From IMG/VR virus record IMGVR_UViG_3300044675_004438, positions 1-32,199 of that record: a DNA stretch of 32,199 bases; one strand, 5' to 3'. Origin of the DNA: a virus. Shown piece after piece: positions 10,938-32,199 of this stretch; the stretch's first letter is position 1; each line of letters opens with the position of its first letter. Made by a program: the position numbers and the translations under genes. The notes below the pieces were generated by a model. That model saw only the letters and a list, made by a program, of their open reading frames with translations, made no database searches and was not told where the DNA came from.

Positions 10938-12635
10938 ATGTCAAAAATTTTATTATATCAAGAAGCTACAACTGGTGTAACCACAAATGGTGAACAGCAT
11001 GCTTTCTTTATTAACGAAAACGGTGTACCGACAGTTAAAAACGGTAGCCAGGTAATAACATTCAGTACAAGCGGAAGCGCGTTTACAGGATCGAGTGGTA
11101 GCTCTGGAGCAAATGGTAGTGCTGGTGTAAACGGAACAGCTGGCTCTAGTGGTGAGAGTGGCGCTACAGGGGCCTCTGGTTCTAGTGGATCGAGTGGAGC
11201 CACAGGTTCTAGTGGTAGTTCTGGTGCAAACGGATTAGATGGTGCTGTAGGTGCTGATGGTGCTGTAGGTAGTTCGGGAACGAGTGGTCAAACATACGGA
11301 ACAAGCGGTTCATCTGGAGCTACAGGTTCTAGTGGTAGCTCTGGTGCCCCAGGTGCTGCTGGTACAAGTGGAACTAGTGGTCAAGAAGGGTTAGGTAATT
11401 ATGTTGCAACCACAACAGCAAACATAACAAGAAGCAGTAATAACGCATTTACCAAGTCAAGTGGTGGTGACAGTTGGAATGCTGGTTTTTATTCAGCACA
11501 ACAAGGTTTTAGAAGCGCATATATTGCTGGTTCACCTTCATCAACAACTGGCCTTGCTTTGTTGGGTATGTCAAGTGGTACTATCGTAACAAATGACCCA
11601 GCGTTTATTGACTACGGTATTGGTGTTTATTCTGGTAGTACTAACATAGTGGTTATCGAAAGTGGTACGGTTAAATACACACACAGCTCAGCTCCTACAT
11701 CATCAACACGTTATTTAATTAATTATGATTTAGAAAATGTAAGATATTATATCGATGGTTTATTGGTGCACACAACAGCACGCGTTGAACTTGGTTTATT
11801 ATATTTAGACTGTGCAATTTACACACAAGATGCTGGATTTACAGGTGTGGTATTCGGTTCAACTGGTACTGTAGGCCCTGCTGGTTCAACTGGTGCGGCT
11901 GGAACTAGTGGTTCGAGTGGTGCAAATGGTTCATCTGGTACATCGGCTGCTGGTGGTGGCGGTGCTGCAACGTATTTAAACGTTCAAGTACATTACACTG
12001 GTCAAACAAAATATGACTATTATGGTACATTATTAGACCAATGGAAAACAACTTACTATAACAGTGAAAGAATTGACCGTGGTACTGGTGATGGATACAT
12101 CACAAAGGTATGGGGTTATATCGTACCATTCACATTAAAACCAGGAGAAAAAATTAAAAAATTGGGTGGATTCATCAACTCAAAAATAACTGGCACAGCA
12201 TATTGCAAAGTTGGTATTTATAACAACCACCCACACCAAAATTCACCATACGCAAAACAATATGAAAGTGAATTAACAGTTACTTGTCCTGGTTACAGTG
12301 ACTTGGTATGGTCAACGTGGGACTACGACTATCAACATACTGGTACAACTGAAGAACAGTTCTGGTTTATTATGCTTTATCCACAAAGGGCTAATAACGA
12401 CTTTGAATGGTCACAAGGTTACCGTGAAACATATGAAATGTCACACGTTACATCAGTATATCCGACCATTAAAACAAACCAGTGGATGATATTTGATGAC
12501 ACAGCTGGTACATACACCACAATGCCATCAAACTTTTCATACTTCCTAGAAAATAACACATGGCCAGTAATGAAACTATCTTTTGCTAATGATAGAACCT
12601 TACCGATAGTTTGGCAAACAGAATTAAACTCATAA
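10938..12635 (+). CDS. Collagen-like tail fibre protein 2 (putative receptor binding)
   Basis: This is a 565-residue modular fibre. A short N-terminal domain (about 1-48, with HAFFINENGVPTVKNGSQV) is followed by Gly-X-Y triplets rich in Ser, Ala and Thr (about 50-152, including GATGASGSSGSSGATGSSG). Next is a beta domain (about 155-307, WNAGFYSAQQGFRSAYI through LLYLDCAIY) that aligns by eye with a domain of fibre 1. A second triplet block (about 312-340, GPAGSTGAAGTSGSSG) follows, and then a distinct C-terminal domain (about 345-565) rich in Tyr and Trp (for example LVWSTWDYDYQHTG), typical of carbohydrate-contacting surfaces. The shared domain and the shared downstream coiled-coil gene suggest that fibres 1 and 2 are diverged paralogues with different binding heads. 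Receptor binding is inferred. Confidence 0.85.
   Translation: MSKILLYQEATTGVTTNGEQHAFFINENGVPTVKNGSQVITFSTSGSAFTGSSGSSGANGSAGVNGTAGSSGESGATGASGSSGSSGATGSSGSSGANGLDGAVGADGAVGSSGTSGQTYGTSGSSGATGSSGSSGAPGAAGTSGTSGQEGLGNYVATTTANITRSSNNAFTKSSGGDSWNAGFYSAQQGFRSAYIAGSPSSTTGLALLGMSSGTIVTNDPAFIDYGIGVYSGSTNIVVIESGTVKYTHSSAPTSSTRYLINYDLENVRYYIDGLLVHTTARVELGLLYLDCAIYTQDAGFTGVVFGSTGTVGPAGSTGAAGTSGSSGANGSSGTSAAGGGGAATYLNVQVHYTGQTKYDYYGTLLDQWKTTYYNSERIDRGTGDGYITKVWGYIVPFTLKPGEKIKKLGGFINSKITGTAYCKVGIYNNHPHQNSPYAKQYESELTVTCPGYSDLVWSTWDYDYQHTGTTEEQFWFIMLYPQRANNDFEWSQGYRETYEMSHVTSVYPTIKTNQWMIFDDTAGTYTTMPSNFSYFLENNTWPVMKLSFANDRTLPIVWQTELNS
11086..11390 (+). repeat. Gly-X-Y (collagen-like) coding repeat, fibre 2
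   Basis: About 100 codons of GSS/GAN/GAT/GTS triplets are encoded by repeated GGTTCTAGT-type units with varied synonymous codons. A shorter block lies at about 11873-11955. The triplet periodicity is uninterrupted over most of the span. Confidence 0.85.
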
Positions 12636-12639
12636 AAAT

Positions 12640-12807
12640 ATGTCACAAGAAACAATACAAACAATACACATTCACCACAAAATAAATGAAAATGGTGAAT
12701 ACGAAGTGGAATACGTTAATAATATTGAAATACCAGCACCTAAAAAAAGTGCTGAAGAAAGAATAGCAGAATTAGAAGCAAAATTAGAAGCATTACTTAA
12801 TGGCTAA
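12640..12807 (+). CDS. Small coiled-coil protein paired with fibre 2
   Basis: ATG 12640, 4 bp after the fibre 2 stop, gives 55 residues ending at TAA 12805-12807 and overlapping the next start at 12800 by 8 bases. The N-terminal 30 residues include IHIHHKINENGEYEVEYV. The C-terminal helix EERIAELEAKLEALL has Leu/Ile heptad spacing and matches the C-terminal helix of the 10763-10936 product in sequence style (EEKIAKL versus EERIAEL). I treat the two as paralogous partners of the two fibre proteins. Function is unknown; fibre folding, capping or attachment are the likely options. Confidence 0.75.
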   Translation: MSQETIQTIHIHHKINENGEYEVEYVNNIEIPAPKKSAEERIAELEAKLEALLNG

Positions 12808-13435
12808 ACAACAATACATACAACCAACAATTGCTGTAACAGGTGACACAACTGGATACATGAATGTTCTTAGTACCACTGATGGTGGTGAGATACAGAT
12901 TGTAACCACAGGCGCAACCATTAACACGATCGGGCCTGATAAGCATGTTGTTGTTGGTGATATGTTGGTTGGTCCTGGTCATTATAAAACCATCCCAACT
13001 GATTTATATGTTGATGGTGATCTAAGCATTGAAAAAGAAGATGATATTGTTATAGGGGATAAAACCGTAACCTACCAGGGGATATTAACAATTGATGGTG
13101 AGTTGTTAGCAACTGGTGATATTGATATTCAAGGTGACCTTATTTTTGAAGATAACCCTGTTGCCGATGATGGTATTAAAGCTGGTTCAACAGATGAAAC
13201 TGGATGGGCTGTAATTGAAAGTGGCACATGGTCTGGTCTTTTTTATAAAACAATAACATTTACAACACCATTCAGTGATGCGAATTACGCGATATCATTA
13301 ACACCTGTGAATGGTCCTGGTGCTAGTGGTGCTGACTATTTATTAGTAAATAATAAAACAGCTAGTGCTTTCGATATATACGCAACAACATTACCAGACT
13401 TATCATTTATTGATTGGGTGGCAATAAAATATTAA
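12800..13435 (+). CDS. Small tail fibre / tail spike-like protein
   Basis: The 211-residue product has three parts. The N-terminal region (about 1-60) is beta-rich (MAKQQYIQPTIAVTGDT). The middle (about 65-118) consists of short Ile/Asp/Gly repeats such as DLYVDGDLSIEKEDDIVIG and ILTIDGELLATGDIDIQGDL, which look like rungs of a beta-helix or beta-stack. The C-terminal domain (about 135-211, ITFTTPFSDANYAISLTPV through DWVAIKY) resembles residues 440-520 of fibre 1 and the lectin-like end domains seen on many phage fibres. It overlaps the preceding coiled-coil gene by 8 bases and is probably translated from the same message. It is likely a tail-tip or side-fibre component; its binding target is unknown. 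Confidence 0.75.
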   Translation: MAKQQYIQPTIAVTGDTTGYMNVLSTTDGGEIQIVTTGATINTIGPDKHVVVGDMLVGPGHYKTIPTDLYVDGDLSIEKEDDIVIGDKTVTYQGILTIDGELLATGDIDIQGDLIFEDNPVADDGIKAGSTDETGWAVIESGTWSGLFYKTITFTTPFSDANYAISLTPVNGPGASGADYLLVNNKTASAFDIYATTLPDLSFIDWVAIKY

Positions 13436-13446
13436 AATTAAAAATT

Positions 13447-13770
13447 ATGATAGAGAATTATAAATCATTCGAAATAACAGAAAAAAATGTAACCGTTTAT
13501 TTATTGAATGGTGATGAAATTTATGCTGTTACTGGCAAGCTACCAGCTTATAAAAAATTAGCAAAAGCTATTTGCCAACATAGTAAAATAAAAATTAATC
13601 CAGAAAATATTAGCTCAATATTATTGAGACATGGTACATTTAGAGCAATTTGCTATTTAGGAGATAGGAAGGATATTGTTATCGTAAACTTTGAGTTAGT
13701 TCAAACTGAGTTTGAGGAATACACCAAACAACTCCTAAAGAAAATTAAACCAGAAAATGATGCAGAGTAA
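13447..13770 (+). CDS. Unknown 107-residue protein upstream of portal
   Basis: I place the start at ATG 13447 after the A-rich leader TAAAATTAAAAATT, although the frame is open from 13414. The product (MIENYKSFEITEKNVTVYLL...) has alternating hydrophobic strands and a helix with KLAKAICQHSKIKINPENI. A strand region with FRAICYLGDRKDIVIVNFEL follows, and it ends in a charged helix (EEYTKQLLKKIKPENDAE). It overlaps the portal start by 14 bases. I do not recognise a family. It might be a small structural or regulatory protein. The strand-helix-strand pattern loosely recalls small DNA-binding folds, but that is too weak to name. Confidence 0.7.
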   Translation: MIENYKSFEITEKNVTVYLLNGDEIYAVTGKLPAYKKLAKAICQHSKIKINPENISSILLRHGTFRAICYLGDRKDIVIVNFELVQTEFEEYTKQLLKKIKPENDAE

Positions 13771-15001
13771 TACTAAACTAAAAATCATCAGCAGAGAAGG
13801 GTTATCCACACCAAAACTAGTTGAGATACCAGATAGAAAGAATGATTGGATTCTTTATGGACAAAATAATGACTATGGTACATTCCTTTTATCTTTGTTA
13901 GATAAGTCATCTATCCACGCCTCAATACAATACGGTAAAATCAACATGACCATCGGTAAAGGATTGGTCAATGAAATCCCCTTCGCAACCCAGGAAGCAG
14001 CTGATGCTTTTGCTCAGTTTGTGAAGAGCCCAAATAATGAAGAAACCCTTGAAGATATCACCTATAAAATCGTTCATGATTTGGTTATTTATGGTAGCTT
14101 TTATCTTGAGTGTGTTTGGAGTAAGGACCGTCAAAGCATTGCGGAAATTTACCACATACCTTATGACAAAATTCGCGTAGGTAAACCAGAGAAAGGTAAG
14201 ATTACACATTATTGGTACAGCGATGACTGGACCCAAATCAAAAAAGAAGAGTATGCGCCTGTCGAAATCGCTGCATTCTCAATGGATGAAAGAAGAGACC
14301 CAGTGCAATTAATGTGCGTTAGAGAATACAACGCTAGTTCACCATATTATGGTAAGCCACAGTACTACCCATCAATACCTTATTGTCAGATCGATGGTGA
14401 GGTTGCTGAGTACCACTTAAACTCGATTGAAGGTGGTTTATCAGCTGATTACATCATTCAGTTAAACAACGCAGAGGGAATGACACAGGAAGAGCAAGAT
14501 GAGACCTATTACAACATCAAAAAAGAGTTGTCAGGTGCATCTGGTAATAAGTGGATGTTAACATTTGGTTCCTCAACTGACCAACAACCTAACGTTATCC
14601 CTATCCCAACAAGCGATACAGATACAAAGTTCTTGACATTGCAAGAAGCATGCATGCAAAATATTTTAACAGCAAACAAACTTACAAATCCATCTTTGGT
14701 TGGTATCAAAACACCACAAGGTTTGGGTTCTAAGGATGAGCTTTTGGATGCATATGACCTTTATTATGAAACGGTTATCAGCAAACTTTGTAAGATGGTA
14801 ACAAAAACATACGATAAGATTTTAGCCATCAATGAAATCCCAACCACAGTTGCGTTTGAAAAAGCACAACCAGTTCCTTTCTCATTGAGTGAGCAAGCTT
14901 TGTTAACTGTTTTAAGTGTAAACGAAGTGAGAGATATGTTAGGTATGGGCCCACAAGAAATAAACGAAACAACACAAACACCTACACAAGATGGCAACTA
15001 A
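13757..15001 (+). CDS. Portal protein
   Basis: The 414-residue product has the layout of an HK97/SPP1-type portal. The N-terminal region is WILYGQNNDYGTFLLSLLD, followed by IQYGKINMTIGKGLV. A wing/stem segment contains EDITYKIVHDLVIYGSFYLE and IAEIYHIPYDKIRVG. Next is a middle strand region. A C-terminal helical part contains TDTKFLTLQEACMQNILTAN and GSKDELLDAYDLYYETVISK, where portals carry the tunnel loop and crown helices. Twelve copies would form the ring through which DNA enters and to which the connector binds. Two tandem ATG codons (13757 and 13760) are possible starts. It overlaps the following gene by 11 bases. It lies about 20 kb downstream of the large terminase around the circle, although these genes are usually adjacent. 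Confidence 0.88.
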   Translation: MMQSNTKLKIISREGLSTPKLVEIPDRKNDWILYGQNNDYGTFLLSLLDKSSIHASIQYGKINMTIGKGLVNEIPFATQEAADAFAQFVKSPNNEETLEDITYKIVHDLVIYGSFYLECVWSKDRQSIAEIYHIPYDKIRVGKPEKGKITHYWYSDDWTQIKKEEYAPVEIAAFSMDERRDPVQLMCVREYNASSPYYGKPQYYPSIPYCQIDGEVAEYHLNSIEGGLSADYIIQLNNAEGMTQEEQDETYYNIKKELSGASGNKWMLTFGSSTDQQPNVIPIPTSDTDTKFLTLQEACMQNILTANKLTNPSLVGIKTPQGLGSKDELLDAYDLYYETVISKLCKMVTKTYDKILAINEIPTTVAFEKAQPVPFSLSEQALLTVLSVNEVRDMLGMGPQEINETTQTPTQDGN

Positions 15002-15581
15002 CGTATTACTTATATCTGAAACAATTTTAAGAGATAGTTCATTCATCGGTGCCAACGTACAAGATAACGCGCTTACAACAAGCATTAAGAGCGCCCAGGA
15101 GACCGTTTTAAAGCCTATCCTAGGTAAAGCCCTATATGACCGTATTATCGATGACGTAGCAGCCGCTGGTAGCTTAACTGGTTTGACAACAAACTATGCT
15201 ATCCTGGTTGAGGACTATTGCATCCCTGTTATCATCAACGCAGCTCTTAACATCTCAATACCAAAAATCATGTGGAAAGCCACAAACAAAGGTATTGTTA
15301 AAACTTTAGACCAGTACACCGAGGGGATCGACTTGGAGACCCTTAAATACATCCGTTCAGAAATTAAAAACGAAGAGGAATATCACATCAAAAGGTTGCA
15401 GATGTATCTTTGCAATAACAACACCTTATTTGTTGAGTACAACGAACCACAGGATGACGAGAATCCAAACCCAAGAATCGGATATGAATCTGGTATTTAT
15501 TTTAGAAGAAGAAGATTAACCAATGTCAGCAACCCATTTTTAAATGGTGCTATAGATGACAACCCACAAAATATCATTTAA
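14991..15581 (+). CDS. Head-tail connector / head completion protein candidate
   Basis: The 196-residue, mostly helical product (MATNVLLISETILRDSSFIG...) begins inside the portal gene and ends on the first base of the next gene. It contains VQDNALTTSIKSAQETVLKP followed by ILGKALYDRII. A helical core follows (VEDYCIPVIINAALNISIPK), and a long charged helix (SEIKNEEEYHIKRLQMYL) precedes a flexible Asn/Pro/Arg-rich C-terminus with RRRR. Proteins of this design directly after the portal in Bacteroidetes phages are generally taken as connector (gp6-like) proteins forming the ring below the portal. The assignment is by position and helix pattern only. Confidence 0.65.
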   Translation: MATNVLLISETILRDSSFIGANVQDNALTTSIKSAQETVLKPILGKALYDRIIDDVAAAGSLTGLTTNYAILVEDYCIPVIINAALNISIPKIMWKATNKGIVKTLDQYTEGIDLETLKYIRSEIKNEEEYHIKRLQMYLCNNNTLFVEYNEPQDDENPNPRIGYESGIYFRRRRLTNVSNPFLNGAIDDNPQNII

Positions 15582-15763
15582 TGGGCTTTTTAGGCGATTT
15601 AGCGTATTATTTTCTAAAAGTAATATCTTTAGGTCAATCCGAAAAGATAAGCGATTATATCGCACGTAAATGGTTTAAACTTGAAGATTGTGGTTGCGCG
15701 AGCAGAAGATTGAAATGGAATAACTGGTTATTACCTGAGCATAAGAAACAATATCCGATATAA
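15581..15763 (+). CDS. Small protein with CGC motif before holin
   Basis: This 60-residue product starts at ATG 15581, overlapping the previous stop by one base. It has a hydrophobic N-terminal helix (MGFLGDLAYYFLKVISLG) and a C-terminal part with DCGCASRRLKWNNWLLPEHK. A CGC-Arg-Arg pattern followed by WN occurs in short proteins near the lysis or connector region of other Bacteroidetes phages, as far as I recall, but no function is established. The N-terminal helix could be membrane-associated, so a role as a lysis accessory is possible. A metal- or disulfide-based fold around the two cysteines is also possible. Confidence 0.65.
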   Translation: MGFLGDLAYYFLKVISLGQSEKISDYIARKWFKLEDCGCASRRLKWNNWLLPEHKKQYPI

Positions 15764-15883
15764 ATGGGGAAACATTCAAAGAACAAAATTAAACTGGCCA
15801 AAGCCATCAAAAAATTACAACAGATAAAACAAGAAGAAGATGTTAAAACAACTACAAATATTACTGGAAACGGTAGGGCTTAA
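15764..15883 (+). CDS. Small basic protein overlapping the holin-like gene
   Basis: ATG 15764 directly follows the preceding stop and gives 39 residues (MGKHSKNKIKLAKAIKKLQQ...) ending at TAA 15881-15883. The first 25 residues form a basic amphipathic helix; the last 14 are polar. The last 44 bases overlap the holin-like gene in another frame. The clean stop-to-start junction supports a real gene, but its short length means chance cannot be excluded. Function unknown; a lysis accessory or translational coupler for the holin is possible. Confidence 0.5.
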   Translation: MGKHSKNKIKLAKAIKKLQQIKQEEDVKTTTNITGNGRA

Positions 15884-16121
15884 TTTAACTTTATTAATCG
15901 GTGGGGCTATTGGCGCTTGGATTGGAATGAAGAATGGACAACCGTGGTGGGTGCAAGCAATTACAGTATTCACTGGAGCGTTTATAGCGAATTACACGGC
16001 CCCTGTGGTGATCGATCTATTTGGAATGGAAAATAGTTCATTAGGTGGTGTTGGATTCATCGTTGGTTACATGGGTAAACATGGCCTGGAGTTTATAATT
16101 GAAAGATTTAAGAAAAAATAA
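15840..16121 (+). CDS. Holin-like membrane protein
   Basis: This 93-residue product has a short N-terminal helix (MLKQLQILLETVGLN) and three hydrophobic segments: about 15-30 (LTLLIGGAIGAWIGM), about 36-60 (WWVQAITVFTGAFIANYTA, PVVIDLF) and about 67-80 (LGGVGFIVGYMG). It ends in a basic tail (ERFKKK). Size, number of membrane segments and charged C-terminus fit a phage holin, which would permeabilise the inner membrane at lysis. It is the last gene before a terminator, closing the late transcript. No endolysin lies next to it, so the assignment rests on the protein alone. Another small membrane protein is the alternative. Confidence 0.7.
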   Translation: MLKQLQILLETVGLNLTLLIGGAIGAWIGMKNGQPWWVQAITVFTGAFIANYTAPVVIDLFGMENSSLGGVGFIVGYMGKHGLEFIIERFKKK

Positions 16122-16156
16122 TTTGATTATTCAAATATAATGCTTAATATTGCATT
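16121..16156. repeat. Two consecutive short inverted repeats after the holin gene
   Basis: ATTTGA/TCAAAT (16121-16126, 16131-16136) and AATGC/GCATT (16139-16143, 16152-16156) are adjacent palindromes at the start of the main intergenic region. No T tract follows, so they do not look like terminators. They could be protein-binding sites. Confidence 0.4.
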
Positions 16157-16206
16157 GTGATTCTTTAAATGCTCCCATATTTATAGGATTTACTGCCATA
16201 TATCAT

Positions 16207-16236
16207 AGCCCGTGCGTTTGTACGGGTTATTTTTTT
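16207..16236 (+). terminator. Intrinsic terminator after the holin-like gene
   Basis: A 7-bp stem (16207-16213 with 16222-16228, one G-U pair; core CCCGT/ACGGG) with an 8-base loop is followed by a T tract at 16230-16236. It ends the late transcript. Its loop contains the TTTG element of the next promoter. Confidence 0.8.
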
Positions 16237-16248
16237 GCCATAAATTTG
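16217..16248 (+). promoter_or_regulatory. Bacteroidetes-type promoter (TTTG, 20 bp, TAAATTTG)
   Basis: TTTG at 16217-16220 and TAAATTTG at 16241-16248 match the -33 and -7 boxes of Bacteroidetes housekeeping promoters (TTTG, TAnnTTTG) with a 20-bp spacer. Transcription would start near 16252-16256, just before a strong hairpin. The -33 box lies in the loop of the upstream terminator. Confidence 0.6.
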
Positions 16249-16251
16249 CGG

Positions 16252-16403
16252 TTAAATAAAAATGCCACCCTAGGCATAAGGTGGCATTTAAACAATTTAA
16301 AAACTTTATATGAAAACAGTAGTTGCTATGAGGTAACCACCACTGATGTGATACAATATTAGGTCTGTTTTCAGTGAAAAAACAATTATTTTCACTTTTT
16401 TTT
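16252..16403 (+). ncRNA. Candidate small structured RNA or attenuated leader
   Basis: This stretch has its own host-type promoter (16217-16248) and its own intrinsic terminator (16374-16403), and no credible protein gene between them. The RNA would begin with a 10-bp hairpin (16260-16269 with 16280-16289, core TGCCACC/GGTGGCA). Next comes an early-gene-like leader (AACAATTTAAAAA), an 8-codon open frame (16310-16336, MKTVVAMR) and a 9-bp long-range stem (TGAAAACAG 16311-16319 with CTGTTTTCA 16365-16373). GGTGG at 16280-16284 could instead pair with CCACC at 16337-16341, giving an alternative fold. It may be a trans-acting small RNA, or a leader that attenuates transcription into the early operon. 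Confidence 0.45.
16374..16403 (+). terminator. Intrinsic terminator before early operon
   Basis: GTGAAAA (16374-16380) pairs with TTTTCAC (16389-16395) across an 8-base loop and is followed by eight T at 16396-16403. The stem is A/U-rich and therefore weaker than the UUCG terminators, which would allow regulated read-through. Confidence 0.65.
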
Positions 16404-16412
16404 CAAAAAAAA

Positions 16413-16443
16413 TTTGCTTTTTAGGAAGTTCTTACTATCTTTG
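16413..16443 (+). promoter_or_regulatory. Early promoter, Bacteroidetes type (TTTG, 19 bp, TATCTTTG)
   Basis: TTTG at 16413-16416 and TATCTTTG at 16436-16443 match the Bacteroidetes -33/-7 consensus with a 19-bp spacer. The ATG of the first early gene is at 16476, after an A/T-rich leader (AAACAATTTATTATT). It is the best-formed promoter in the genome and would be read by host RNA polymerase. Confidence 0.85.
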
Positions 16444-16475
16444 TACTATATATAAACATAAAACAATTTATTATT

Positions 16476-16706
16476 ATGAAAAAATGTTGCAGATGTGGGG
16501 CCGAGAAACCCCTAGAAATGTTCGTAAAGAACAAGAGTTCAAAAGATGGTCACAAAGGTTACTGTCTTGATTGTCACCGTGAAAGAACACAAAAGTGGCG
16601 CGATGAGAATCAAAAGAAAAATCAAGATGCTCAACGCATTTACTATTGGAAAACCAAAGCCAAGGCCCTTGAGAATAAACTAAAAGAAAACGAAATACCT
16701 TTTTAA
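16476..16706 (+). CDS. Small zinc-binding protein, first early gene
   Basis: The 76-residue product has two CxxC pairs, Cys4/Cys7 (KKCCRCGAEKPLEMF) and Cys30/Cys33 (HKGYCLDCHRERTQKWR), a four-cysteine zinc knuckle. A basic helix with Lys/Gln follows (about 36-72). The pattern is like the N-terminal zinc module seen beside HNH or endonuclease VII-type domains, but no nuclease His/Asn motif follows, so I do not call it a nuclease. As the first gene under the strongest host-type promoter it may act early in host takeover or regulation (inference). It probably binds nucleic acid or protein. Confidence 0.8.
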   Translation: MKKCCRCGAEKPLEMFVKNKSSKDGHKGYCLDCHRERTQKWRDENQKKNQDAQRIYYWKTKAKALENKLKENEIPF

Positions 16707-16708
16707 TT

Positions 16709-16855
16709 ATGGACACATTTGAATTACGAGAACTGGGGGATGACCTTTCAATGGCAAACCTTGATTTAATCCACATTGATTACTTAGAAGTAACTTTGGT
16801 TGGTGAAGAACACAATATTAATAACTTAGAAACAATTTATACGCATGAACCCTAA
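16709..16855 (+). CDS. Small acidic protein
   Basis: ATG 16709, 2 bp after the zinc protein stop, gives 48 residues (MDTFELRELGDDLSMANLDL...) ending at TAA 16853-16855. It is strongly acidic, with Asp/Glu throughout and a strand-like middle (IDYLEVTLVGEE). The end overlaps the next gene start at 16845 by 11 bases, suggesting translational coupling. I recognise no family. Acidic early phage proteins are often inhibitors of host functions or DNA mimics, but nothing here shows that. Confidence 0.6.
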   Translation: MDTFELRELGDDLSMANLDLIHIDYLEVTLVGEEHNINNLETIYTHEP

Positions 16856-17417
16856 AAAATCATTGTTGGATTTGCTAAATAACGATAGAGTTCTTTTAGC
16901 TGAAATGAAAGAAAAAGATATGCCATATCAAGCTACTAACATTCTTGAACAAAGAATTAAAACTCGTGAGTATTTCCTATACGGAATTAATATGGCTGAT
17001 GCTATTAATTTTATTTTTGATAAGAAAAAATTAAATGAAATGCACTATGATAAAGGTATAATATCTGAAATAGAGAGTGGTAAACTGATATGGGATGGTG
17101 ATTATTTAACCGACTCCGCTTCATATTATTCATATTATTTTTATGATGAGCATACTCCAGGTCCAGGTTATAGTCTTGAAGATATGATACATGAAGCGGT
17201 GCATTTCCACGGTGAATTGGATAGTAAATGGTTTGAATGGTATTATAATGGCACCGATACCGAAGCTGATGAAATACCATTTGATGATATTAATGACGCT
17301 ATAATTGAAATGCTTAACGTAAACGATATAATAGCTTATAAGTCAAAATATGGCTATAATTCATTAGTCGCCATATATAAAAACCTTGATCTAGAATATG
17401 AGTATGAGGTATATTAA
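16845..17417 (+). CDS. Unknown 190-residue early protein with HExxH motif
   Basis: The product (MNPKKSLLDLLNNDRVLLAE...) is acidic and rich in Tyr and Asp. It has an N-terminal helical part (1-60), a Tyr-rich segment (about 85-108, SASYYSYYFYDEH) and an HEAVH motif at residues 116-120 followed by FHGE. HExxH is the zinc-binding signature of zincin metallopeptidases, with Glu124 as a possible third ligand. The rest of the protein shows no peptidase family that I recognise, so the motif may be chance. The 3' end overlaps the replication initiator start by 20 bases, placing it in the replication operon. Function unknown. Confidence 0.7.
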   Translation: MNPKKSLLDLLNNDRVLLAEMKEKDMPYQATNILEQRIKTREYFLYGINMADAINFIFDKKKLNEMHYDKGIISEIESGKLIWDGDYLTDSASYYSYYFYDEHTPGPGYSLEDMIHEAVHFHGELDSKWFEWYYNGTDTEADEIPFDDINDAIIEMLNVNDIIAYKSKYGYNSLVAIYKNLDLEYEYEVY

Positions 17418-18255
17418 ACTATGGGATGGGATAGCGTCTGACTGGCGCTATTCCAAAAGCCCCTATCACATGCATTTATTTATCCATTGCTTACTTGAAG
17501 CATGGTATGCTGATGCAAAGGAATTTAAACGCGGTACATTCAGAACCAGTGTTAGGAAATTGGCTGATAAAACTGGTATAAGTTCTTCTAAGTTATGTGA
17601 TTTACTTAAAGAATTATCATCTGGTGATAACCCAGAATTGGAAATTATTACAGGTAAATACACTGAAATTACTATATTGAATTACCATAAGTATCAAGAC
17701 ACAGGTGTTCACCACACGGTACATAGTGTTCGCCACACGGTACAGGGTGTACCGCAGGACAATACAAAGTGTACCGCCACAAATGACAAAGTGTACCGCC
17801 AGACGGTAACTAAAGAAGAAGAAAAGAAAGAAGAAGAAAAGAAAGAAGAAAGAGTTTTGATTTCTTCATCCACTGACGTGGGGTCTTCTTTTGAAGAATT
17901 AATTGAGGTATATCCAAAGGTTAATAGTCACAAAGTTGAAACACTTGCTTTGTTCAATAATTTAGATTTGGATGAAAAGAATAAATGTATTACCTTTGCA
18001 AAACAACTTCAACAGATATGGAAACAAAATGGTATCCAAGACAAATATCAATTTATGAAAAGTTGTCATACCTTTGTTGAGTTAAAAATGTTCAATGGTA
18101 AACCAGAGGATATATTCCCAAGGGAAATCTCAACAGAAATAAAAGAACTCAACTATGCTCATGAAGATTTGGAATTGATGAAGCGAATTGAGGAAAGAAA
18201 ATTAGAAAGACTAAACAAGAGAAAACAATATGAGGAAACAATTAAACATCAGTGA
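17398..18255 (+). CDS. Replication initiator (lambda O-like), winged-helix
   Basis: The 285-residue product has an N-terminal winged-helix domain (about 1-98). It starts SMRYIKLWDGIASDWRYSK, and helix-turn-helix residues follow in TSVRKLADKTGISSSKLCDL. A wing (LEIITGKYTEITILNYHKYQ) completes the domain, the pattern of phage replisome organiser proteins. A linker (about 103-152) is encoded by the iteron array and a Glu/Lys tract. The C-terminal part (about 160-285) contains EELIEVYPKVNSHKVETLAL and a charged terminal helix, and likely contacts the helicase. A DnaB-type helicase gene overlaps its end by 26 bases. This mirrors the lambda O plan, in which the origin lies within the initiator gene between its binding and interaction domains. 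Confidence 0.85.
   Translation: MSMRYIKLWDGIASDWRYSKSPYHMHLFIHCLLEAWYADAKEFKRGTFRTSVRKLADKTGISSSKLCDLLKELSSGDNPELEIITGKYTEITILNYHKYQDTGVHHTVHSVRHTVQGVPQDNTKCTATNDKVYRQTVTKEEEKKEEEKKEERVLISSSTDVGSSFEELIEVYPKVNSHKVETLALFNNLDLDEKNKCITFAKQLQQIWKQNGIQDKYQFMKSCHTFVELKMFNGKPEDIFPREISTEIKELNYAHEDLELMKRIEERKLERLNKRKQYEETIKHQ
17705..17810. repeat. Five tandem iterons: probable replication origin inside the initiator gene
   Basis: Five units start at 17705, 17726, 17747, 17769 and 17791, a period of 21-22 bp (two helical turns). Each is 19-20 bases, with consensus GTGTWCCGCCACACGGTACA, and is itself an imperfect palindrome (TGTACCG / CGGTACA arms). Units 1 and 2 differ by one base; units 3-5 keep GTGTACCGC exactly. 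A purine-only tract follows at about 17814-17853. Iterons next to a skewed, easily melted tract in the initiator gene are the lambda-type origin layout. Confidence 0.85.
17814..17853. other. Purine-only tract next to the iterons (candidate unwinding element)
   Basis: After the last iteron the + strand is an uninterrupted run of A and G (GAAGAAGAAAAG-type units) encoding Glu/Lys. Its position beside the iterons matches the purine-rich, easily opened segment of lambda-type origins. Confidence 0.55.
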
Positions 18256-19537
18256 TCTGATTAATATCGACAGAGAGTACGATATCAAAATGTTAAATGT
18301 ACTTTTAACAAACCAACAATTTTTAAATAGAATAAGAAAGCACATCGATGGCAACTTGTTTGACTATAACCCACACATTTCATTTATGCTTAGGGTTATC
18401 AAAGATGATGACGGCATCAATACATGGGATGATTTGGAGTTTGCTATCAAACACAAACTTGAATTATCAAAAGCCGACATGCAACAATTGTTGGACACCG
18501 TACCACAGTACAAACTTGAATCAGTTGGTAACACCAAGATTATTGAAAAGACAATATCGATGGTGTTCAAACAAAAACAATTGATTAAAATTGTAAAAAA
18601 GTTGCATGAGAAAGCGAATGCTGGTAGAATTATCCAATACGATGAATTAGAAGAATTGGTTAAGATAGCCAAAGATGTTAATGATGTTGAGGTTTTTGAT
18701 TTAGGTAACGATGATTATTCATCACTCATAAAAGAGTATGATGAGAAAATTAGTATCGGTATTGATGGTTTAGATATCACATTCAACGGTGGTATATCAA
18801 GAAAGGACATACTTGTTTACATCGCTCCAACTGGTGTTGGTAAAACAACTTGTCTTGTGTTGGCCGCTTTGGGTGCTATGTTCGATGAAAAGAAATGTTT
18901 ACATATCTTTGTCGAAGATGAGATTGTTGATATTAGAAGAAAATACTTTGCCGCGTTAACAGGTATCCCAATTAACGATATCAATGACAATATATCACTT
19001 ATTCAAGCCAGGTCAAAAGAACATGAACCGTTGATGAAAAATGTTAAATTGGTAAGTACCTCTGGTGCCAATGTCAAGATAAGCGAAATAGAATCGTTTA
19101 TAGACGATTATATCGAAGAAAACGGTACGGTTGATGTCTTGATATTAGATTACCTAGATCGTGTCATTACGGACAGGAAAAGGGGTAATAAATATGAAGA
19201 CCAGGCTGATGTCATCAAAGAGATTGACAGGATTGCTAAAAAATACAACATTGCAATTGTAACAGCGGCTCAAACAAACCGTGGTGGTATTAACAAAGAT
19301 ATTCTACACTTGGATGATATCCAGGGTTCTATCGAACGCGTTCAGCAAGCAACTCACGTTGTTACTATTGCAAGCCCAGCCGCTATCAGACAGGTTAAGG
19401 CTGCCACGATACATGTGGTTAAAGCAAGGGAGTTTAATGCCACTGGTAAGGTCTTCACCAATATATTGTTTGACCCAAATACATTAAACGTTGACTGCAC
19501 CGATTTTATCACAGTAAACGATGGGTTTGAAGAATGA
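18230..19537 (+). CDS. Replicative DNA helicase, DnaB-type
   Basis: The 435-residue product has a helical N-terminal domain (about 1-160) and a RecA-like C-terminal domain. Walker A is APTGVGKTT at 199-207, with Lys205. A catalytic Glu candidate is Glu229 in HIFVEDE. Walker B is VLILDYLD at 303-310, with Asp307. The DnaB H4-type sensor is AAQTNRGG at about 346-353 with Gln348, and IHVVKAREFNATGKV forms the C-terminal strand and arginine-finger region. It unwinds DNA at the phage fork and would be loaded by the initiator encoded just upstream (26-base overlap). The N-terminal domain is not close to canonical bacterial DnaB by eye, which is common in phage helicases. The phage encodes no recognisable polymerase or primase, so host enzymes are presumably recruited. 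Confidence 0.9.
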   Translation: MRKQLNISDLINIDREYDIKMLNVLLTNQQFLNRIRKHIDGNLFDYNPHISFMLRVIKDDDGINTWDDLEFAIKHKLELSKADMQQLLDTVPQYKLESVGNTKIIEKTISMVFKQKQLIKIVKKLHEKANAGRIIQYDELEELVKIAKDVNDVEVFDLGNDDYSSLIKEYDEKISIGIDGLDITFNGGISRKDILVYIAPTGVGKTTCLVLAALGAMFDEKKCLHIFVEDEIVDIRRKYFAALTGIPINDINDNISLIQARSKEHEPLMKNVKLVSTSGANVKISEIESFIDDYIEENGTVDVLILDYLDRVITDRKRGNKYEDQADVIKEIDRIAKKYNIAIVTAAQTNRGGINKDILHLDDIQGSIERVQQATHVVTIASPAAIRQVKAATIHVVKAREFNATGKVFTNILFDPNTLNVDCTDFITVNDGFEE

Positions 19538-19547
19538 TTTTAAAAAA

Positions 19548-19579
19548 CTTGCACAGTAAAAAAATAAAACATATATTTG
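19548..19579 (+). promoter_or_regulatory. Host-type promoter with 17-bp repeated operator-like spacer
   Basis: CTTG at 19548-19551 and TATATTTG at 19572-19579 fit the -33/-7 pattern with a 20-bp spacer. Bases 19549-19565 (TTGCACAGTAAAAAAAT) recur exactly at 20249-20265 in the next promoter. The start codon is at 19596 after AAACAATTTAAAA. Confidence 0.75.
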
Positions 19580-19595
19580 TATAAACAATTTAAAA

Positions 19596-19808
19596 ATGGA
19601 AAAACAAGACTCAATGCGTTTTTTAAACGTTGCTGACTTAGTGTCAGTATCAGCCTTTGATGAGGAAACAAATCAAATCTTTGTAACAGTAACCGACACC
19701 ATAGGTCGTTACGTGGTAATCGTTATTCACCCTGGTTTAATCGAAACAATCGGAGTTCAAGCGAAAGATGCGATGATTAACAAGTTAACTGAAGAAGATG
19801 GCAATTAA
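19596..19808 (+). CDS. Small unknown early protein
   Basis: The 70-residue product (MEKQDSMRFLNVADLVSVSA...) looks like a compact beta-rich fold with a C-terminal helix. Strands come from NQIFVTVTDTIGRYVVIVIH; the helix is KDAMINKLTEED. It has its own promoter and is the first gene of a short operon that ends at 20259. It overlaps the next small gene by 11 bases. I recognise no family. Early expression and small size suggest regulation or host modulation, without direct evidence. Confidence 0.7.
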   Translation: MEKQDSMRFLNVADLVSVSAFDEETNQIFVTVTDTIGRYVVIVIHPGLIETIGVQAKDAMINKLTEEDGN

Positions 19809-19905
19809 GAAGAATTATTCAGTGGTCAGGAAGGCACTTGGATTGAAGCAACGCGCTGTACCAAAGCAAAAGAAAAGTAAACCAACCAAACGTAAAAAGT
19901 GGTAA
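19798..19905 (+). CDS. Very small basic protein
   Basis: ATG 19798 gives 35 residues (MAIKKNYSVVRKALGLKQRA...) ending KRKKW, stop at 19903-19905. Fourteen of 35 residues are Lys or Arg. It overlaps the upstream gene by 11 bases and ends 3 bp before the next start, so it fits the operon well. It resembles in style the 47-residue basic product at 5211-5354. Nucleic acid binding is plausible; otherwise unknown. Confidence 0.55.
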   Translation: MAIKKNYSVVRKALGLKQRAVPKQKKSKPTKRKKW

Positions 19906-19908
19906 ATC

Positions 19909-20259
19909 ATGGGGAGAAATAGGCCGCCTAACACAGCACATAGACCTTTGAGAACATACTTTGAACGCAAAGGTAGGATTGGTGATGGGGATAACCCACA
20001 CAAGCGATCAATGATAACCCACACACAAGTGGTCCACAAAGAAGGTTATGGATATGTCTTTGAACTAAGATACGATTCACCACCGTTCTACCATGTCTTT
20101 AAAGAGCGTTATTATGAGACCGATGATGGTGGTACAGGTATCACATATCCAGGTGACGATGCGTTCAGAGAAAATGACTACCAGTGGGCATGGTGCGCAA
20201 CCAATTTAGAGGACGCAAAAAAAATTTTAGAAAATTTTGAAAATATATTTGCACAGTAA
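19909..20259 (+). CDS. Unknown 116-residue early protein
   Basis: The product (MGRNRPPNTAHRPLRTYFER...) has a basic, probably disordered N-terminus (about 1-35). A beta-rich middle contains VVHKEGYGYVFELRYDSPPF and YHVFKERYYETDDGG, and an acidic C-terminal helix (LEDAKKILENFENIF) follows. The last codons (TTT GCA CAG TAA) lie inside the next promoter: the gene's stop codon falls within the 17-bp operator-like block, so gene end and promoter are fused. No family recognised. The charge split, basic N-terminus and acidic C-terminus, is its most obvious feature. Confidence 0.7.
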   Translation: MGRNRPPNTAHRPLRTYFERKGRIGDGDNPHKRSMITHTQVVHKEGYGYVFELRYDSPPFYHVFKERYYETDDGGTGITYPGDDAFRENDYQWAWCATNLEDAKKILENFENIFAQ

Positions 20260-20279
20260 AAAAATCTGTTGTATGTTTG
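20248..20279 (+). promoter_or_regulatory. Host-type promoter, second copy of the 17-bp element
   Basis: TTTG at 20248-20251 and TATGTTTG at 20272-20279 match the Bacteroidetes consensus with a 20-bp spacer. The block 20249-20265 is identical to 19549-19565. It overlaps the stop codon of the upstream gene and reads into the gene at 20307. Confidence 0.8.
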
Positions 20280-20306
20280 CATCAACAAATTTAAAAACAT
20301 AAAAAT

Positions 20307-20609
20307 ATGAAAAATTTCAAAAACAACTACGAAGTTAAACTTCACAAACTTGAAGCGTTATCAAACGGTGATGTGGCTATTAAAGTTTTCGTTACACAAA
20401 AATCAACAACTAAGTTTGACCACTACACTTGGACACCTAATTGCTATTGTGCTGAACCATACTTTGGGACCTTTTCTGATGATTACGGAAAATTCGATGA
20501 ACAGGTTACAAAATATATAATCGATCAAATCCTGGCTAAACAACCAGAGTTAGCCGAACCAAAGCAAGTTGAGTTTTACAATAAACAAATCAAAGCTTTA
20601 CAAATGTAA
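20307..20609 (+). CDS. Unknown 100-residue early protein
   Basis: The product (MKNFKNNYEVKLHKLEALSN...) has an N-terminal beta region (GDVAIKVFVTQKSTTKFDHY) and an aromatic, Cys-containing middle (TWTPNCYCAEPYFGTFSDDYGKFDEQ), followed by C-terminal helices. It is a single-gene unit, with its own host-type promoter 28 bp upstream and a strong UUCG terminator right after the stop. Such isolated, strongly expressed early genes often act on host functions, but I see no diagnostic motif. Confidence 0.75.
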   Translation: MKNFKNNYEVKLHKLEALSNGDVAIKVFVTQKSTTKFDHYTWTPNCYCAEPYFGTFSDDYGKFDEQVTKYIIDQILAKQPELAEPKQVEFYNKQIKALQM

Positions 20610-20610
20610 G

Positions 20611-20638
20611 AAAGGGGCTTCGGCCCTTTTTTTTTTCA
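20611..20638 (+). terminator. Strong intrinsic terminator with C(UUCG)G tetraloop
   Basis: An 8-bp stem (20611-20618 with 20623-20630, one G-U pair) closes on UUCG at 20619-20622 and runs into a T tract to about 20636. It uses the same C(UUCG)G design as the terminator at 7567. It ends the early region. Confidence 0.93.
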
Positions 20639-20756
20639 TTTTTTTCTGAACGCTATAATAAATTTTATATATATTAATATCCATTAGTATTTTTTTTAAG
20701 GTGGTGGTTGTTTGATTTTACTAAATGCCATTTTACAATTTTATTGACATCACCGA
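20639..20756 (+). other. Non-coding gap between two terminators
   Basis: No open frame of note lies here. The sequence is A/T-rich (runs at 20660-20685) with a GGTGGTGG block at about 20700-20707 that can pair with ATCACC at 20750-20755. Because a second terminator follows without a gene, a short transcript may start in this gap. Confidence 0.35.
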
Positions 20757-20785
20757 GAAAAGCACCTTTTAGGTGCTTTTTTTTT
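20757..20785 (+). terminator. Intrinsic terminator before the sigma-like gene
   Basis: AAAAGCACC (about 20758-20766) pairs with GGTGCTTTT (20772-20780) across the loop TTTTA, followed by a long T tract. It is the second terminator within 150 bp and insulates the sigma-like gene from early transcription. Confidence 0.88.
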
Positions 20786-20816
20786 ACCCTTAATGGTCGT
20801 TTGCTTTATTTCTAAC

Positions 20817-20840: not shown

Positions 20841-21365
20841 ATGGATTTAAATGAATGGATTACAGTAAATCACCAAAGTAACTTAAGGGAGATAAAAAAG
20901 ATTTGCAAGAACGATACCTTGTATGAAGAACTATACCAGGAATGCATCGTCATACTATTGGAATATGATAAAGAAAAGATACAGGGACTAATCGATAGAG
21001 CCCAACTAAAATTCTTTTTTATAAGCATCGTTTTAAGACAGTACATATCTACCACATCACCTTTCCATGTAAAGTTCCGCAAATCGCACCAGAATCGCTC
21101 AGAGAGGGACGTATATAACATCGAGATACTAGATGAAGAATACGACCATCAAAAAGATGAATTAATCGCGTTCATCAACAAACAAAAAGATGCTGAGGAA
21201 TGGTACACCAGAGAGTTGCTTAGATTAAAGTTTGAAGAGGGTCTGAGTTACAGAAAAATAAGCAAGCTAACAAAAATACCAACAACGAGTATATACAATA
21301 CAATAAATAAGTTCCGAGAGGATGTAATAGAAAAACACCATGGGCGTAAGAAAGATAAACACTAA
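20841..21365 (+). CDS. RNA polymerase sigma-70-like factor
   Basis: The 174-residue product fits a minimal sigma factor. Residues 25-80 (TLYEELYQECIVILLEY, then FFFISIVLRQYISTTSPF) resemble sigma region 2, which contacts core polymerase and the -10 element. After an acidic linker (about 90-120), residues 121-162 form a region 4-like helix-turn-helix (ELLRLKFEEGLSYRKISKLT then IPTTSIYNTINKFRED). The C-terminus is basic (HGRKKDKH). It lies at the start of the packaging and structural gene block, behind two terminators, which suits a middle-to-late switch. I infer that it directs host RNA polymerase to phage late promoters. A simpler helix-turn-helix regulator is the alternative. Confidence 0.7.
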   Translation: MDLNEWITVNHQSNLREIKKICKNDTLYEELYQECIVILLEYDKEKIQGLIDRAQLKFFFISIVLRQYISTTSPFHVKFRKSHQNRSERDVYNIEILDEEYDHQKDELIAFINKQKDAEEWYTRELLRLKFEEGLSYRKISKLTKIPTTSIYNTINKFREDVIEKHHGRKKDKH

Positions 21366-29126: not shown

Positions 29127-32100
29127 TAAAAAAGGTCGAATTAATAGTAGAAAAAAATAGCATCGATTTATTCGGTGACGAATCATTCCCATTGTCATTT
29201 TCAATCGATGAGATTAACGACATTGGTAAAAAAGCTGCGTCCTATTCAAAGGAAATTAACATACCAGCAACCCAATTAAACAACCAGATATTCACCTCAT
29301 TATTTGATGTGACAGTTGAAGGTGGTTTTAACCCAATCAGTAGAAAGTATGCCACCCTATTAGTGGATGGTGTGCCTGTTATGCGCGGTTATTTTAAGTT
29401 GCTGGGGGTTAACATCAAGAACAACGAATACGTTACTTACAGGGGTTTATTGTATGAGGAACAAATCAACTTCATCCAGGCACTAGACCAGTACGAATTG
29501 ACCAACCTTAACATGGTTGCAACAGGTACAACCACATCAATGACTGGGCCTTATACCTATTTATCAGAGTTTAAGATACTTAACTCACCAAACATTTTCA
29601 CATCATCAGTTGGTAAGACAAATACTGGTGGTACATGGACATCGGCCCTTAACTATAACAACCTGGTGTGGACGGGATCGACCTATGGTTTCTTATCACA
29701 ACAAAATAGATTGGTTGGTAACTCAACAGCGAATGGTATTACGGTATCAATGCCAACAAACTATTACTGGAGCCCAACTTCTATGAACGCTTATGAAGCA
29801 TCATCAGCACAATATTTGGAGTTCAGAGCAAATGTCAAACTAAGGATTTTTGCAAGCATTGCTGGTGGTACAACTTATACCCCAGTATTCGCGTGGAGAA
29901 TTGTTAAATCAGATTACACATCACCAATATCTGGTTTATATAGTGATACCGTATTAGCGAATGGTTATTTAACAGGTAGTAGTATTGCTAACAGTGGTTT
30001 ATTCCCGATATTAACATCTACATCAACATTAGACACAGGTACAATAGGTGTACAATTAGGTTCTGGTGATAAAGTTAGGTTCGAATGTTGGTTATCTAAC
30101 CCAGGGCCAACAAGCTCATTCACAATATCTGACACATCTGAGATTACAGGTAAAGTTTATTCTGGCCCAACCACAACTGTAACTGGTGAAACATTTAACT
30201 TAACAAAGGTGATGCAAAATATCAACAACGTTAATACGTCTGATGATGCGACCATTGTATTCCCACTTATTGATTACTCAAAACTATACAACTTTACAGC
30301 AATTAATACAAGTTTAATCAACTGGTCAAACCAACCATCTTTTTTATCGATATCTGCTGAAGATTTAAGACCGATGGTGTTCGTTAAAAGGGTATGGGAC
30401 AGCATATTCAAACAAGCTGGTTTTAAATACAAATCAAACTTCCTAAACAGTGACACCTTCAAAAAGATGGTGATCGGTGGTGGTATTGAGGAAACTGAGA
30501 TTTCATCCACAATGTTATCAACAAGGGTTAACCCACATAGAACAAACTACGATGTTTTATTGCACACCTTAAAGGATAATGAAAATATAAGCAGTGGTGT
30601 TTTAACAAGATATGACTATAGAGAGTTTCATATGGGTAATGCTTTTGCTACAGCAACAACTGGTACAACAGCATGGTTTGTAACTGAATCAAACGTTGAT
30701 GCTTATCAAACATATGCCCCAGCGAATAGGTTCTATCACAACAACGCTTATTTAACCCCAGGTACAAACGGAACTGTAACATCTGGTGGTGCCACAACTT
30801 ATTATGGTTACGGTAACTTGGCTGTGACTGGTGATACACCTTATGGTTACTTCCCAACAGCACCTAGAGATGGTAGATATAGGGTGAAAGCTAAAATAAC
30901 ATTCACATCTTACGCACCATATCAAATAAGCTCACCAACAACTTTAGTAGACTTCCAAACAAGGTACTCATTACAGGTACAAAAAATGGTGGTTGGTTCT
31001 TATAAACACGTAAGCACCTTTACAACACCATCGTATAATAACTGGAAAGTTGAGAAATCAAAAACTGTTATTAGAGCAACTGGTACAACAAACCAGAACC
31101 TAAGTATTGAGATGGATGAAATCATCGATTTAAAGAAAGGTGACATGCTTAGAATTGGTTTCTATGGTGATGCGAACTCACAAGCAAACTTTAGTACAAG
31201 TGTGTGGGGTTCAAAAGTGACAATCGATGCAACACCAGCGAATACATACATGGAGTTCGGTAGATTTGGTACGATATTAAATTCAAAGATTGATAATTAC
31301 GCAACGCTTTTACCTAGGGGTATAAAACAACGTGATTTTATCCTGGAAATTGCAAAGATGTTTAATTTATACTTCGAGACCGACCGCGAGGATAACAGAA
31401 CAATGCTTATTGAGCCTAGAGACACCTACTACGAGGCTGGGGTCATTAGGGATTACAGCAAGAAAATAGACTATTCTAAGGACTTGCAAATCGATATTTT
31501 ATCACATGATTTCCCTAAGACAACCGCATTCCAATATAAAGAGGATGATAAGGACTATTACGGTAAGATTTATGAGCAATTTGTTAATAACCAAAAACCT
31601 TTTGGTTCATATGTTTATGTTTCACCAAATGAATACACGGTTGAGGATAGTGAATTGCAATTAAAATTCGCATCTTCTTACATTCAAAAGATAGGTGATA
31701 CTGGTATTAAGATAACCAAGATTATTGACCCAGCTAAAATGGAGCCAGACGGTTCATCAAAAACTTCACCTTATAAAATTCAACCTAGGGTGATGATGTA
31801 TAAAAAGAAGACCATCACACCAGGTGTGACAATACCTTCTAATTATTATGCAAGTGTTTCTATCGCAACCAATAATGTCCCTTATACACCATATACGGTT
31901 TCAGCTACCAGTGGTTTTAATACAGCTGGTGGTTACGCATTAGCCGCTTATGGTTATGCTGGTCACTTGAATGACCCAGATACACCTACATTTGATTTGA
32001 ACTGGTTTACAGACTTCAGCTACTTACCTGGTACAACTGGTACAACCCAGAACCTTATCAATGTTTTTTACAAACAGCAGTTGATAGAATTAACGGACCC

Positions 32101-32199
32101 ATCAGCGAGAAAAATAACTTGCTTTGTGGACCTACAACCAGTGGACATTCACAACCTACGTTTTTGTGATGTTTATTACTTCAATAAAGAGTACTGGAG
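29123..32199 (+). CDS. Large tail-tip protein, N-terminal part (continues at position 1)
   Basis: ATG 29123 overlaps the stop of the preceding gene. The frame stays open to the end of the contig (1025 codons) and continues at the left end to TAA 864-866, giving 1271 residues in all. The N-terminus (MIKKVELIVEKNSIDLFGDE, followed by ASYSKEINIPATQLNNQIFT) is a pattern known from tail structural proteins in Bacteroidetes phages. Later segments include FLSISAEDLRPMVFVKRVWD and QRDFILEIAKMFNLYFETDR, alternating with Ser/Thr/Gly-rich beta regions (residues about 150-390 and 500-700) that may be surface-exposed binding domains. It sits just before the tape measure gene around the circle, suggesting the tail-tip hub or distal tail complex. 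No peptidase or lysozyme motif was seen. Confidence 0.85.
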   Translation, partial: MIKKVELIVEKNSIDLFGDESFPLSFSIDEINDIGKKAASYSKEINIPATQLNNQIFTSLFDVTVEGGFNPISRKYATLLVDGVPVMRGYFKLLGVNIKNNEYVTYRGLLYEEQINFIQALDQYELTNLNMVATGTTTSMTGPYTYLSEFKILNSPNIFTSSVGKTNTGGTWTSALNYNNLVWTGSTYGFLSQQNRLVGNSTANGITVSMPTNYYWSPTSMNAYEASSAQYLEFRANVKLRIFASIAGGTTYTPVFAWRIVKSDYTSPISGLYSDTVLANGYLTGSSIANSGLFPILTSTSTLDTGTIGVQLGSGDKVRFECWLSNPGPTSSFTISDTSEITGKVYSGPTTTVTGETFNLTKVMQNINNVNTSDDATIVFPLIDYSKLYNFTAINTSLINWSNQPSFLSISAEDLRPMVFVKRVWDSIFKQAGFKYKSNFLNSDTFKKMVIGGGIEETEISSTMLSTRVNPHRTNYDVLLHTLKDNENISSGVLTRYDYREFHMGNAFATATTGTTAWFVTESNVDAYQTYAPANRFYHNNAYLTPGTNGTVTSGGATTYYGYGNLAVTGDTPYGYFPTAPRDGRYRVKAKITFTSYAPYQISSPTTLVDFQTRYSLQVQKMVVGSYKHVSTFTTPSYNNWKVEKSKTVIRATGTTNQNLSIEMDEIIDLKKGDMLRIGFYGDANSQANFSTSVWGSKVTIDATPANTYMEFGRFGTILNSKIDNYATLLPRGIKQRDFILEIAKMFNLYFETDREDNRTMLIEPRDTYYEAGVIRDYSKKIDYSKDLQIDILSHDFPKTTAFQYKEDDKDYYGKIYEQFVNNQKPFGSYVYVSPNEYTVEDSELQLKFASSYIQKIGDTGIKITKIIDPAKMEPDGSSKTSPYKIQPRVMMYKKKTITPGVTIPSNYYASVSIATNNVPYTPYTVSATSGFNTAGGYALAAYGYAGHLNDPDTPTFDLNWFTDFSYLPGTTGTTQNLINVFYKQQLIELTDPSARKITCFVDLQPVDIHNLRFCDVYYFNKEYW
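32073..32199. repeat. Terminal direct repeat marking circular closure (copy 2)
   Basis: Identical to bases 1-127. Together with the in-frame tail gene, it shows that the right end joins position 128 onward of the left end. Confidence 0.95.

Follow-up and report, generated by a model that had tools for sequence, protein, structure and literature searches.

The intergenic stretch at 16253-16350 of the window, i.e. of the whole DNA analysed (a virus record from IMG/VR, 32,199 bases long), probably encodes a small RNA on its minus strand, here called sRNA-2, which may act as an antisense regulator of several of the phage's own early genes. Promoter-like boxes, a hairpin, minus-strand terminators, their conservation, covariation of the hairpin stem and complementarity to early gene starts can all be read from the sequences. 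In the initial annotation, an undescribed regulatory RNA or attenuator had been proposed at this place on the plus strand. A regulatory RNA is very plausibly there and has no match in Rfam, but it would be encoded on the opposite strand and would not be an attenuator. The observation was partly confirmed, in that the place is right while strand and function had been misread, and its interpretation was partly supported.

The window ends in an exact direct repeat of 127 bp (1-127 and 32073-32199) and is, for this reason, very probably a complete, circularly assembled genome. It appears to belong to a freshwater phage of Bacteroidota type. Genes were called by us as the longest ATG frames and nearly all of them lie on the plus strand. 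Promoters of the form TTTG-N19/20-TAnnTTTG, which would suit a Bacteroidota host, occur four times in the window compared to 0.8 expected, and because of these numbers a single match weighs little. The main gene blocks are as follows:
Up to 16121, plus strand: structural and lysis genes, the last being the holin gene (15840-16121).
From 16476, plus strand: early module with endonuclease VII/HNH-like, DnaD-like loader and DnaB genes (module at 16200-20650; in relative G1 at 12500-16500, in relative G3 at 16100-20260).
At 24227: terL, located after a sigma-like gene (20841).

No DNA match to the window was found among annotated phages, and its TerL and portal proteins are only 22-30% identical to those of annotated phages. 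Two relatives, G1 (32,858 bases) and G3 (32,595 bases), were found via terL. Both are complete, G3 likewise with a terminal direct repeat, and their TerL is 87-89% identical to that of the window. A further record, L045, is a near-identical partial copy of G1, and the comparison rests on three distinct genomes. Searches with a 116-aa early protein, a 171-aa protein and terL recovered no relatives beyond the same phages, and wider motif scans of viral and genome contigs gave only G1, L045 and G3 plus chance matches in coding sequence. Compared to the window, the early module of G1 and G3 is inverted and has another position with respect to the late genes; two genome arrangements were thus available for comparing the stretch in front of the first early gene.

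Some further genes were noted. The DnaD-like loader and DnaB of the window (17398-19537, plus strand) were not matched by tblastn in G1 or G3, where a DUF6291 primosomal-type gene is found in their place. Judged by this comparison, replication genes have been exchanged between the phages while the sRNA-2 unit was kept. The gene at 20841-21365 (plus strand) is a sigma-factor-like phage gene (phrog_1740, 1.5e-7; Sigma70_r4 weak). A/T-rich blocks such as ACTATTTATATTTAAA are found upstream of the sigma-like gene in G1 and G3, TTATTATATTTAT precedes the late genes, and both types of block may be promoters for the product of this gene. A collagen-repeat protein (PF01391) encoded at 10938-12635 (plus strand) is probably a tail or fibre protein.

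The sRNA-2 unit consists of the following elements:
16354-16390, minus strand: promoter, AATAATTG (16390-16383), 21-nt spacer and TAATATTG (16361-16354).
About 16350 to about 16253, minus strand: predicted sRNA-2, about 97 nt, with the start placed from the promoter and the end from the terminator.
16326-16336, minus strand: invariant loop motif UUA-CCUCA-UAG of 11 nt, identical in the three phages.
16288-16320, minus strand: unpaired linker CTGTTTTCATATAAAGTTTTTAAATTGTTTA, complementary to leaders and start codons of early genes.
About 16250-16289, minus strand: terminator hairpin with U-tract (equivalent in G1 at 12410-12388, minus strand).
About 12453-12383 in G1 and about 16046-15964 in G3, minus strand: counterparts of sRNA-2.

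Two blocks are conserved on the minus strand, namely AATARTT(T)G - 20-21 nt - CCTAnTATT(G/A)TA and TTACCTCATAG. The bipartite promoter pattern was defined after the sequences were seen; it matches once in G1 and once in G3, both times at sRNA-2, and twice in the window, at sRNA-2 and at a second unit described below (sRNA-1), with 0.33-0.45 matches per genome expected from shuffling, and it arose in 3-5 of 2000 local shuffles for each genome. The consensus of σABfr promoters is TTTG and TAnnTTTG (PMC7366714). The sRNA promoters have TTG or TTTG, a spacing of 19-21 nt and a -7 box, TAnTATT(G/A), which departs from that consensus by one to two bases. In the proposed model, the sRNA-2 promoter would be σABfr-like.

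Folded from the inferred starts, the minus-strand units reach z values of -4.08 (window), -2.46 (G1) and -3.70 (G3), with predicted lengths of approximately 70-97 nt across the phages. The three pairs closing the UUA-CCUCA-UAG loop are invariant, whereas the stems otherwise differ between phages: the next three pairs are changed on both sides, the innermost being G-C, C-G and U-A, respectively. In the hairpin alignment, 88.9% of cells are paired compared to 28-44% in slid controls. In G1 and G3 this hairpin at the same time forms the terminator, with T9 and T8 behind it on the minus strand. In the window it forms the 5' hairpin and a separate terminator hairpin is located downstream, the loop of which (UUA-UGCC-UAG) resembles the G1 loop. 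A GC-rich hairpin followed by a U-tract, as in intrinsic terminators, is present on the minus strand at 16289-16260 in the window and at 12410-12388 in G1; the terminator in G3 was judged by inspection and U-tract score. This score is higher on the minus than on the plus strand in all three genomes.

For the plus strand, the initial annotation had assembled a leader or attenuator, composed of a promoter, an 8-codon leader peptide, competing stems and a terminator. The elements concerned and the neighbouring early gene are:
16217-16248, plus strand: promoter-like site TTTG-N20-TAAATTTG.
16260-16289: hairpin AAATGCCACC/GGTGGCATTT.
16310-16336, plus strand: 8-codon frame from ATG to TAA (MKTVVAMR).
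16311-16319 with 16365-16373, plus strand: 9-bp stem of TGAAAACAG and CTGTTTTCA.
16373-16403, plus strand: terminator AGTGAAAA/TTTTCACT with T-run.
16413-16443, plus strand: divergent early promoter TTTG-N19-TATCTTTG (G1 12513-12543, G3 16099-16130).
16476-16706, plus strand: first early gene, endonuclease VII/HNH-like, 76 aa (phrog_1035, 1.5e-12), with orthologous first early genes in G1 and G3.

All of these elements exist in the window, the promoter fits its pattern, the leader of the short frame resembles early-gene leaders, and the plus strand folds better than shuffled sequences (z = -4.59). However, neither the promoter-like site nor the frame, the long-range stem or the terminator has a counterpart in G1 or G3, and the corresponding plus-strand stretches there are no more stable than shuffled sequences (z = 0.06 and 0.01). 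The first hairpin is present, but its better U-tract lies on the minus strand. The 8-codon frame is, read on the other strand, mostly the complement of the anti-start motifs of sRNA-2. A two-fold switch, in which GGTGG of this hairpin would pair with CCACC behind the frame, is energetically poor by the folding model (-30.2 compared to -39.2 for the best fold, i.e. 9 kcal/mol worse). Gene 16476 has its own promoter downstream at 16413-16443, conserved in both relatives; because of this promoter, read-through into the gene is not needed. The covariation analysis in related phages, which had been suggested as a check, supported a hairpin, but the conserved promoter, loop and terminator point to the minus strand. 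A plus-strand attenuator is hence improbable. A plus-strand transcript from 16217-16248 may still exist in the window phage and would be perfectly complementary to the minus-strand RNA. Conservation on the opposite strand can overturn an RNA reading which is convincing in a single genome.

A second unit, sRNA-1, has the same architecture as sRNA-2 and would be its sister RNA:
16117-16152, plus strand: promoter AATAATTTG-N19-TAATATTG, the same two boxes as in the sRNA-2 promoter.
16153-16236, plus strand: predicted sRNA-1, about 80 nt (z = -4.32).
16176-16178, plus strand: CAT in the GCUCCC hairpin loop.
16197-16199, plus strand: CAT in ACTGCCAT.
16205-16236, plus strand: terminator, which also ends the late operon.
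About 12337-12222 in G1 and about 15931-15820 in G3, minus strand: counterparts with TTTGCCAT and TACTCCCAT, adjoining sRNA-2.

The unit is inverted between the window and G1/G3, and the strand bearing the terminator always carries CAT, not ATG. No clear sRNA-1 promoter was found in G1 or G3. A less certain third unit at 20690-20790 (plus strand) consists of a stem with GGTGGTGG...TGCCAT...CATCACC and a terminator, AAAGCACCTTTTAGGTGCTTTTTTTTT. It is located between the terminator of the early operon and the sigma-like gene and is similar to the 5' stem which sRNA-1 has in G1 and G3; no counterpart upstream of the sigma gene was found in these two genomes.

The minus-strand units of G1 and G3 are followed by the late operon, as would be expected if the units were leaders with terminators controlling late transcription by antitermination, like the 6S leader of lambda. 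In the window, however, sRNA-2 is not followed by the late operon; it is directed at convergent late genes and would enter them from their 3' end. The unit is nevertheless retained, and such a function is highly improbable.

For target prediction, every RNA was complemented and matched against the region from -35 to +18 around the start of each gene. Besides gene 16476, the targets proposed for sRNA-2 in the window include:
17398-18255, plus strand: DnaD-like helicase loader (phrog_2514, 1.8e-10), predicted target; ATGAGGTAT at the in-frame ATG 17404 is complementary to the CCUCA loop over 9 nt.
18230-19537, plus strand: DnaB-like helicase, predicted as a weaker target through TATGAGG (7 nt) and additional pairing upstream (-16.2 kcal/mol).
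19596-19808, plus strand: early gene of 70 aa, strongest predicted target, with 15 nt of perfect complementarity ending at the A of the ATG.

The leader of gene 19596 contains the only other copy of the 15-nt linker complement in the window. The linker complement extends over 11 nt at gene 20307 and over 10 nt at genes 16476 and 16845, with a predicted duplex energy of -18.3 kcal/mol for gene 16476. The top four matches of sRNA-2 (15, 11, 10 and 10 nt) are early genes, followed by the loader with 9 nt; a match of 10 nt is also present at one late gene, 6987, where it is formed by the terminator stem. Patterns, gene classes and tests were chosen after inspection and p values are therefore optimistic: for sRNA-2 of the window, the mean match to early genes and the best match (15 nt) were each reached in 0 of 300 shuffles, compared to a background value of 0.44 for late and other genes. 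In G1, the early-gene mean was reached in 0 of 300 shuffles for sRNA-1 as well as for sRNA-2 (late and other genes, 0.45 and 0.98, respectively), and matches of at least 8 nt covering the start codon were found for five of nine early genes but for none of 30 others. For sRNA-2 of G3, the values were 0.023 (mean) and 0.010 (best). No significant target among the phage gene starts was found for sRNA-1 of the window, and only the G1 copy of sRNA-1 has a target signal. Total duplex energy was rejected as a target score, since it was uninformative, probably because base composition dominates it.

In G1 as well as in G3, sRNA-2 matches best at the orthologous gene 2, of DUF6291 primosomal type, with 11 and 12 nt. 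When the sRNA-2s were swapped between the phages, only 8 and 6 nt remained. In the six RNAs, CAT triplets are more often unpaired than average (0.64 compared to 0.43) and more frequent than in shuffles (20 compared to 13.6; 5 of 500).

The CCUCA loop matches two gene starts in the window (17404 and 18230; 9 and 7 nt) and none in G1 or G3. As a general targeting element it was rejected for the latter reason, and for the same reason it probably has a further role, e.g. in binding a protein or a host RNA. A minus-strand sRNA with a host target, either mRNA or protein, was considered accordingly; the CCUCA and CUCCC loops would be its active parts and the resemblance to phage gene starts would be secondary. 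The CCUCA loop is the best conserved part although it lacks a phage start-codon partner in G1 and G3, and the C-rich loops with the terminator weakly resemble known sRNA families. This reading is nevertheless rather unlikely, as the complementarity is specific to early genes in all three phages and two of these share an orthologous target.

In a scan of genome segments, none of the 3192 others reached the score of sRNA-2 of the window. The next-best segments contain early-gene starts, and sRNA-2 of G1 and G3 was less striking in this control (4.7% and 8.9% of segments). A decayed early leader on the plus strand would give the same signal, because a complement to gene starts is at the same time a plus-strand copy of a gene start. 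The region might thus be intergenic debris, in which decayed early leaders and back-to-back promoters and terminators insulate the early operon without any trans-acting RNA. That segments with early leaders score like the sRNAs, that the module was moved and inverted between phages and that terminators between operons are common would agree with this. It does not account for an invariant 11-nt loop on covarying stems, for the conserved minus-strand promoter, or for CAT in place of ATG on the strand presumed to be transcribed, also after inversion of the unit, and we regard debris as quite unlikely. As far as sequence can tell, the orientation of promoter and terminator and the behaviour of sRNA-1 on inversion favour the antisense reading over a decayed leader.

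According to the antisense reading, sRNA-2 would be transcribed from its own σABfr-like minus-strand promoter, divergent from the early operon, and ended by the intrinsic terminator. Its hairpins and unpaired linker would expose the CCUCA loop and the anti-start and anti-leader stretches, which would base-pair in trans at the translation-initiation regions of several of the phage's own early genes (19596, 20307, 16476, 16845 and the DnaD-like loader 17398/17404 in the window; the DUF6291 gene in G1 and G3). Pairing would lower translation, and early and replication proteins would be damped as infection proceeds. Provided that the minus-strand sRNA is real, it quite likely acts mainly on early gene starts. 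For the complete model of a multi-target antisense sRNA repressing early genes, including replication genes, in which we infer transcription, pairing, repression and timing, we assume slightly less than an even chance. More tentatively, there may be a family of sRNAs in Bacteroidota-type phages which read the leader and start sequence common to their own early genes, so that one RNA could damp the whole early and replication module, and whose anti-start stretches would co-evolve with the gene starts of each phage. If true, short RNAs would replace or supplement protein regulators of the early-to-late switch in this phage group, and the target would be a leader common to early genes, i.e. one-to-many, as opposed to the single-target antisense RNAs of classic phages.

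The Rfam search of the window gave no family at its cut-off and weak sub-threshold matches only. Among these, sRNA-1 scored 24.8 bits against suhB/mmgR (RF00519; cut-off 41) and 24.2 bits against anti-hemB (RF02837; cut-off 49.5). It is a member of neither family, the likeness being a weak covariance-model resemblance with a hairpin followed by a terminator. The hairpin pattern had 15 matches in IMG/VR; the remaining elements of the unit accompanied none of them. A review of phage sRNAs (PMC12197685) and the literature searched describe no sRNA from a Bacteroidota phage, which is absence there and not proof.

In c4 RNA of P1 and P7, loops are believed to hold the complementary stretches, which would block the start region of an mRNA (PMC12197685). 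The candidate sRNA-2 would share with it that a structured, phage-encoded RNA presents loop-placed complementary stretches to phage mRNA starts, here with complementarity and loop exposure determined in silico. A difference is that a single antirepressor mRNA is the target of c4, in temperate phages, whereas here several early genes are predicted. The best phage targets are early or replication-type genes instead of an antirepressor, neither antirepressor nor integrase was seen in the window phage, and the c4 Rfam family had no match in the window at the cut-off or in permissive searches.

The RNAs sar of P22 and OOP of lambda are antisense RNAs (PMC12197685). As small phage antisense RNAs controlling phage genes, they resemble what is proposed for sRNA-2. 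Both overlap the gene they act on, whereas sRNA-2 is intergenic and its predicted pairing is in trans, short and with several genes. Among phage sRNAs which likewise act in trans, PreS of lambda has host dnaN as its target and VpdS of VP882 host and phage mRNAs, both RNAs being described as Hfq-binding (PMC12197685); here phage early genes are the predicted targets. GibS and other sRNAs of Bacteroides thetaiotaomicron mostly have σABfr promoters and use extended pairing in AT-rich sequence (PMC7366714). They are similar in being sRNAs of Bacteroidota type and differ in being chromosomal and metabolic, the sequence relation having been assessed via Rfam alone. Antisense sRNAs of phages are already known, and the point of interest is the possible targeting of many early genes by one RNA.
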